Shown here piece by piece: positions 1-850 of a stretch of DNA of 32,443 bases; position 1 is the first letter of the stretch, and every line of letters begins with the position of its first letter. The DNA comes from Bacillota bacterium (GTDB lineage Bacteria > Bacillota > Sulfobacillia > Sulfobacillales > JAIMBI01): the NCBI GenBank assembly GCA_021797815.1, contig JAJZYZ010000027.1, forward strand, positions 1-32,443, read 5' to 3'. The position numbers and the translations under genes are program-made. The notes beneath the pieces are model-generated. The model saw only the letters and a list, made by a program, of their open reading frames with translations, did no database searches and was not told where the DNA came from.

Positions 1-98
1 CCGTATTCCCAGACCCGTGATGAAAGTGGGGAATTCCTCATGCTGAAAGTGGGGAATTCCCGATGATGAATCTGGGTATTTTAAGGCTACGTTTTACA
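1..98. mobile_element. End of an IS21-family-like insertion sequence (partial)
   Basis: The 17-nt motif TGAAAGTGGGGAATTCC occurs twice in direct orientation (21-37 and 44-60), and a degenerate third copy follows at about 67-82. Multiple short end repeats of this GTGGGGAATT type are typical of IS21-family termini, where they are transposase-binding sites. The segment stops at 97-98 with CA, the usual terminal dinucleotide of IS21 elements, and the next base begins the 3' part of a CRISPR repeat. The body of the element lies off the left edge, so the family assignment rests on the end repeats and on the istA/istB relics at 475-850. Confidence 0.5.
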
Positions 99-474
99 GG
101 ATCGACCGATGGGTGTCGCAGGCAAGTTGGTGTCGGCGCTGGCTCCCCCGCGTGAGCGGGGATCGACCCGGCCGCAAGCGTCTCTTCTAGCCGCGCGATC
201 GGGCTCCCCCGCGTGAGCGGGGATCGACCCAGCGCGTATTACCCCGGCAGTGTGGCCTTCGAGGCTCCCCCGCGTGAGCGGGGATCGACCCTCTACTAAA
301 GGAGGGGCATTGACGTGGTAGATGGCTCCCCCGCGTGAGCGGGGATCGACCCGTCCACGTCATGCGTTGCGCGAGCCACCGGGTGGCTCCCCCAGGTGAG
401 CCGGGATCGACCGAGCCTCGGTGCCTGGGATCCTGATATGGTCGGGGCTCCCCCGCGTGAGCGGGGATCGACAC
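99..474 (+). CRISPR. Type I-E CRISPR array, 6 repeats plus one truncated repeat
   Basis: Repeats of 29 nt begin GGCTCCCCCGCG and end GGGGATCGACCC, with the CCCCGCG/CGGGG hairpin typical of type I-E. Copies are at 141-169, 202-230, 263-291, 324-352, 385-413 and 446-474. A seventh, truncated copy is at 99-108: only the 3' part GGATCGACC is left. All six spacers (109-140, 170-201, 231-262, 292-323, 353-384, 414-445) are exactly 32 nt. The repeat at 385 carries four substitutions, including the loop-side bases, and the last one ends CAC instead of CCC. This decay marks the right side as the leader-distal end, so the leader and newest spacers would be to the left, where the IS end now lies. No cas genes are present in the window. 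Transcription from the original leader is probably lost. Confidence 0.95.
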
Positions 475-690
475 GGCGATACCGTGGCCGTCGTGCGGGG
501 CGGCGTCCATCCGTTCACCGCCTGGAGCGGCCAATCCGCGACGGTGCTGTTCGACAGCCGGAACGCGTTGGCCCTGGCCCGTGCCACACCAGACGACATC
601 CCCGGAAACCCCCGGTTCCTCGACTTCGCCCGGTTCCACGGGTTTGACCTGCATGACGCAGAAGTGCACCGGGCGCAGACGACAGCGTGA
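475..690 (+). pseudogene. istA (IS21 transposase) internal fragment
   Basis: An open frame with strong G/C third-position bias runs from the end of the last CRISPR repeat to a TGA at 688-690. The translation contains ATVLFDSRNALALAR followed by NPRFLDFARFHGF and HRAQT. This resembles the IstA integrase-core stretch in which a 'LYDN.K..VL' strand is followed by 'NP.F.DFA..YGF' and 'YRAQTKGK'. Both ends are missing: there is no N-terminal HTH, and the frame is broken just where KGKVE would be expected. It has no start codon of its own and no RBS. The assignment is from remembered family motifs, so an unrelated gene fragment is possible. Confidence 0.5.
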
Positions 691-724
691 GCGCGGTACT
701 ACTCCTCTTTCGTCATCTTCATGT

Positions 725-850
725 CTGCAGATGGCGACCGCAATGATCGACCGCCTCGCCCATCACGGGCATCTCCGCCTCTTCGACGGCGATAGCTACC
801 GCATGACTCACGCGCTCATGAAAGAATCGAGGACGTCCAACCGCCCGGCG
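725..850 (+). pseudogene. istB (IS21 helper ATPase) C-terminal fragment
   Basis: In the frame starting at 731 the translation reads MATAMIDRLAHHGHL followed by FDGDSYRMTHALMK. This is the characteristic C-terminus of IstB/IS21 helper ATPases (A.A..DRL.HH......G.SYR). The P-loop and DnaA-like core are absent, so only a tail of about 35-40 residues survives. It follows the istA fragment in the expected istA-istB order and orientation, which indicates one IS21-family element with a large internal deletion. The frame stays open well past the usual end of IstB, so I cannot place the original stop. Confidence 0.65.

Follow-up and report, generated by a model that had tools for sequence, protein, structure and literature searches.

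How does an array of CRISPR repeats come to begin in the middle of a repeat, directly beside what resembles the terminus of a mobile element? This question is raised by the left end of the window, the whole 32,443-nt stretch of DNA analysed here, whose base 1 is the edge of contig C23 in a bin of 142 contigs. Our answer, which we hold with considerable confidence, is that an IS21-family element inserted into one type I-E repeat near the leader-distal end of the array. The features concerned are these:

1 to 98, minus strand: IS21-family element truncated at the contig edge, istA-proximal end (assigned from end repeats, the TACA terminus and IstA in kin copies)
99 to 107, plus strand: interrupted CRISPR repeat, of which the last 9 nt (positions 20–28) are present (61-nt register and suffix test)
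108 to 140, plus strand: 33-nt spacer that has no counterpart on contig C131 of the same bin (array comparison)
141 to 473, plus strand: six type I-E repeats of 28 nt and five 33-nt spacers (repeat spacing and comparison with C131)
264, plus strand: the sole mismatch between window and C131 across 202–384 (183 nt), G in the window and A in C131

The six 28-nt repeats start at 141, 202, 263, 324, 385 and 446, a spacing of 61 nt. The IS end directly abuts GGATCGACC, which equals the last 9 nt of this repeat and lies in exact register, one 61-nt unit before the first intact copy. When 80–107 is compared with the repeat, the match is limited to these 9 nt and scattered bases, and the break point falls between repeat positions 19 and 20. 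Within the window, GGATCGACC is confined to the six repeats and position 99, and a repeat suffix longer than 8 nt was found at none of the approximately 31,900 other start positions outside the array on one strand. Register and suffix test together bear out the original prediction of a truncated repeat one unit before the repeat at 141, with the repeat and spacer lengths then given as 29 and 32 nt corrected to 28 and 33 nt (spacer 108–140). Repeats of 28–29 nt in units of about 61 nt, together with I-E cas genes and a leader beside the same repeat on C131, identify the system as type I-E. The copy at 385 is degenerate; since degenerate repeats are usual at the leader-distal end of an array, it also marks that end here. 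Among 150 relatives, one-mismatch versions of the window repeat were found at class level only.

The IS21 family is a common type of bacterial jumping gene, whose members encode IstA and IstB and have two ends with a target duplication of 4–8 bp. We recognized IS21 ends by a conserved terminal CA (TGT...ACA) and several internal repeats of about 20 nt. Both are present in 1–98. Three end repeats of about 20 nt occupy 18–37, 41–60 and approximately 64–83, the third being diverged, and alignment with kin elements places the IS terminus at the TACA of 95–98. The sequence GTGGGGAATTCC has two copies in the window, at 26 and 49, where 0.28 would be expected, in agreement with the pair of end repeats and the CA terminus previously described beside the repeat remnant.

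A DNA search of 150 relatives also recovered this IS end, both from the sister species and from further members of the family and order. The three-repeat layout and the TACA terminus are common to all aligned kin copies, and the flanks beyond diverge. IstA (NF033546) begins just inside the matching end in four of the kin and scores above the curated cut-off in two of them, Sulfobacillus acidophilus and G011 (E was 1.8e-6 in G004 and 3e-26 in G003). A complete 3,324-bp element in G011, an order-level relative, encodes IstA and IstB and is bordered by a 6-bp target duplication, CCGATT (G011:C46:90691-94014; L104:192-3515). This element shares the end layout and TACA terminus of the window, although the two ends are only about 84% identical across 57 nt and the element sits in non-CRISPR DNA. 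Because kin with the identical layout start IstA just inside the end, and because the G011 element is complete, we conclude that 1–98 is the istA-proximal end of an IS21-family element, the family assignment resting on the kin copies; istA would be oriented leftwards, away from the array.

A search of the bin contigs revealed no second IS end, transposase body or target duplication, and no other copy of the IS end was found there. IstB matches were inspected on five contigs of the bin (C94, C136, C115, C44 and C134), with a similar end motif on C134 only. That copy is partial and decayed. Comparison of the IS end, the CRISPR repeat and spacer 108–140 with viral contigs gave no match. When the genomes of 84,980 species were scanned for the exact terminus pattern, four copies were obtained, all in two MAGs of relatives. 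Three of the four are no more than about 150 nt from a contig end, as is typical of a multicopy IS.

We therefore ask what single event would leave an element end flush against nine nucleotides of a repeat. In the proposed scenario, the population would be a mixture of strains of a Bacillota species that shares its order with Sulfobacillus acidophilus, and in one of these strains an IS21-family element would have transposed between repeat positions 19 and 20. By analogy with the kin element, the insertion would have duplicated about 6 bp, and the GGATCG at 99–104 is the predicted duplication. If the duplication is indeed 6 bp, the unseen other junction would read GGCTCCCCCGCGTGAGCGGGGATCG and then TGT.... 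The element is also presumably multicopy, which would explain why the contig breaks within it.

The junction at 98/99 is known from one assembled contig. Searching the bin with the first 19 nt of the repeat (at most one mismatch) and with its core (at most three mismatches) returned array units on C23 and C131 only, so the second junction is not assembled in the bin. With the left repeat half thus nowhere in the bin, an IS-mediated deletion or recombination might have removed everything to the left, such that the other flank of the IS is not the 5′ part of the repeat, and IS-associated loss of array blocks is documented in Mycobacterium tuberculosis (PMC7708916). However, a missing half is equally expected when a contig terminates within the IS, no deletion is directly evident, and we regard this alternative as improbable. 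The other end of the contig (32101–32443) is made up of the 3′ end of a 23S rRNA gene, which is also present on C132 and C90, and of a 5S rRNA gene. Because this 23S part recurs, both contig ends are best read as assembly breaks caused by repeats.

An assembly chimera, in which IS and array pieces were wrongly joined, might be suspected, since the assembly is fragmented (142 contigs) and contains more than one version of the array, and the array of a class-level relative has an odd 2.6-kb stretch between repeats that is possibly such a join. Nevertheless, the join coincides exactly with the IS terminus and lies within an in-register repeat, and IS and repeat have no long overlap that could cause a false join, which makes this explanation very unlikely.

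The proposed insertion of the element into the repeat raises the further question of whether the array was cut from its leader, and here contig C131 is informative. It carries cas3-cse1-cse2-cas7-cas5-cas6e-cas1-cas2 (cas1e and cas2e), the leader-side flank and 46 uninterrupted repeats, and its last three spacers are those found in the window at 230–262, 291–323 and 352–384, after repeats 2, 3 and 4. Because C131 joins cas genes, leader side, 46 repeats and these shared distal spacers, an uninterrupted allele exists in the bin. The contigs diverge upstream of the shared stretch: a different spacer stands there on C131, whereas in the window two more spacers lead up to the IS. C131 stops 120 nt past the single mismatch at 264, as is expected where two alleles merge in k-mer assembly. 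The two contigs thus look like alternative alleles in a mixed-strain assembly and not like two loci, although there may instead be two separate arrays with a common tail. A direct join of C131 to C23 in one genome was ruled out, as the shared spacers on C131 already follow a different upstream spacer.

In the IS-bearing allele, the interruption lies close to the old, leader-distal end, and what appears on the far side of the IS is only the old leader-distal tail. Hence, the earlier claim of an IS21-type insertion between repeat positions 19 and 20 is supported, the end matching that of kin that bear IS21 transposases, but the accompanying claim that the array had been separated from its leader is true at most for one allele, given the uninterrupted version with cas genes and leader side on C131. 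In the interrupted allele, leader-driven pre-crRNA transcription would run into the IS, and the handful of oldest spacers behind it may be lost, or may depend for their expression on IS or internal promoters alone, while adaptation at the leader should stay untouched. The C131 array (L025) also contains two pairs of duplicated spacers (26/33 and 4/43), one pair identical and the other with a single difference, which suggests past recombination between repeats. Comparison of this array with phage records gave no match.

Interruption of a CRISPR array by an IS is ordinary, and cases are on record from other bacteria. Four strains of Xanthomonas citri pv. citri have an IS21-family (ISRso19-like) element within a CRISPR repeat, and one strain has another within a spacer; these insertions were noticed through contigs that end in the IS within the array (PMC6889575). 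As here, an IS21-family element lies inside a repeat, draft contigs were broken at the IS end within the array, and leader and terminator parts were on separate contigs (PMC6889575). In that study, both junctions were sequenced by PCR in several isolates, whereas our case comprises one junction in an assembled bin; unlike in X. citri, the bin also contains the array in uninterrupted form. IS6110 likewise splits repeats of the direct-repeat (CRISPR) locus of M. tuberculosis, where alleles with and without the IS coexist in the species (PMC7708916), although this system differs in IS family, in its 3-bp duplication, in recurrent insertions into one locus and in CRISPR type. IS insertions in cas genes are also widespread (PMC10359306). 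The locus described here is a further instance of such interruption and leaves the understanding of IS21 elements and CRISPR arrays unchanged. It also calls for caution, since a leaderless array at a contig edge in a metagenome bin may have an intact allelic counterpart on another contig.

The original prediction had raised, as an open matter, that the element might target CRISPR repeats, and had proposed a genome search for the IS end beside them. A preference for the hairpin or the sequence of the repeat would accord with one insertion within a palindromic repeat and with the published IS21-family case in another genus, but it is most improbable: the nine kin copies have non-CRISPR flanks (CRISPR-like periodicity in the outer 600 nt of none of the nine, by a test that detects the window array), all four exact-terminus copies sit at non-CRISPR sites, and the second X. 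citri insertion lay in a spacer (PMC6889575). If true, such targeting would give mobile elements a repeated route to split off old immune memory.

Some neighbouring features deserve mention. In the class-level relative, about 2.6 kb of non-repeat DNA lie between two repeats of a related array (L091:1382–3954; G144:C36), with open frames that match no known Pfam family and no IS21 signature; this gap may reflect either a genuine insertion or a join made in assembly through a spacer and the source of that spacer. In the window, a decayed IS21 remnant follows directly after the last CRISPR repeat (475–811, plus strand). Its first part (475–687) weakly resembles the later part of the IstA catalytic domain (E 0.014), and approximately 728–811 corresponds to the IstB C-terminus (E 1.2e-5). 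That 1–98 and 475–811 are two ends of one element is ruled out by their opposite orientation. Shortly beyond the remnant lies a tRNA-Thr (TGT) gene, at 1036–1111 on the minus strand.
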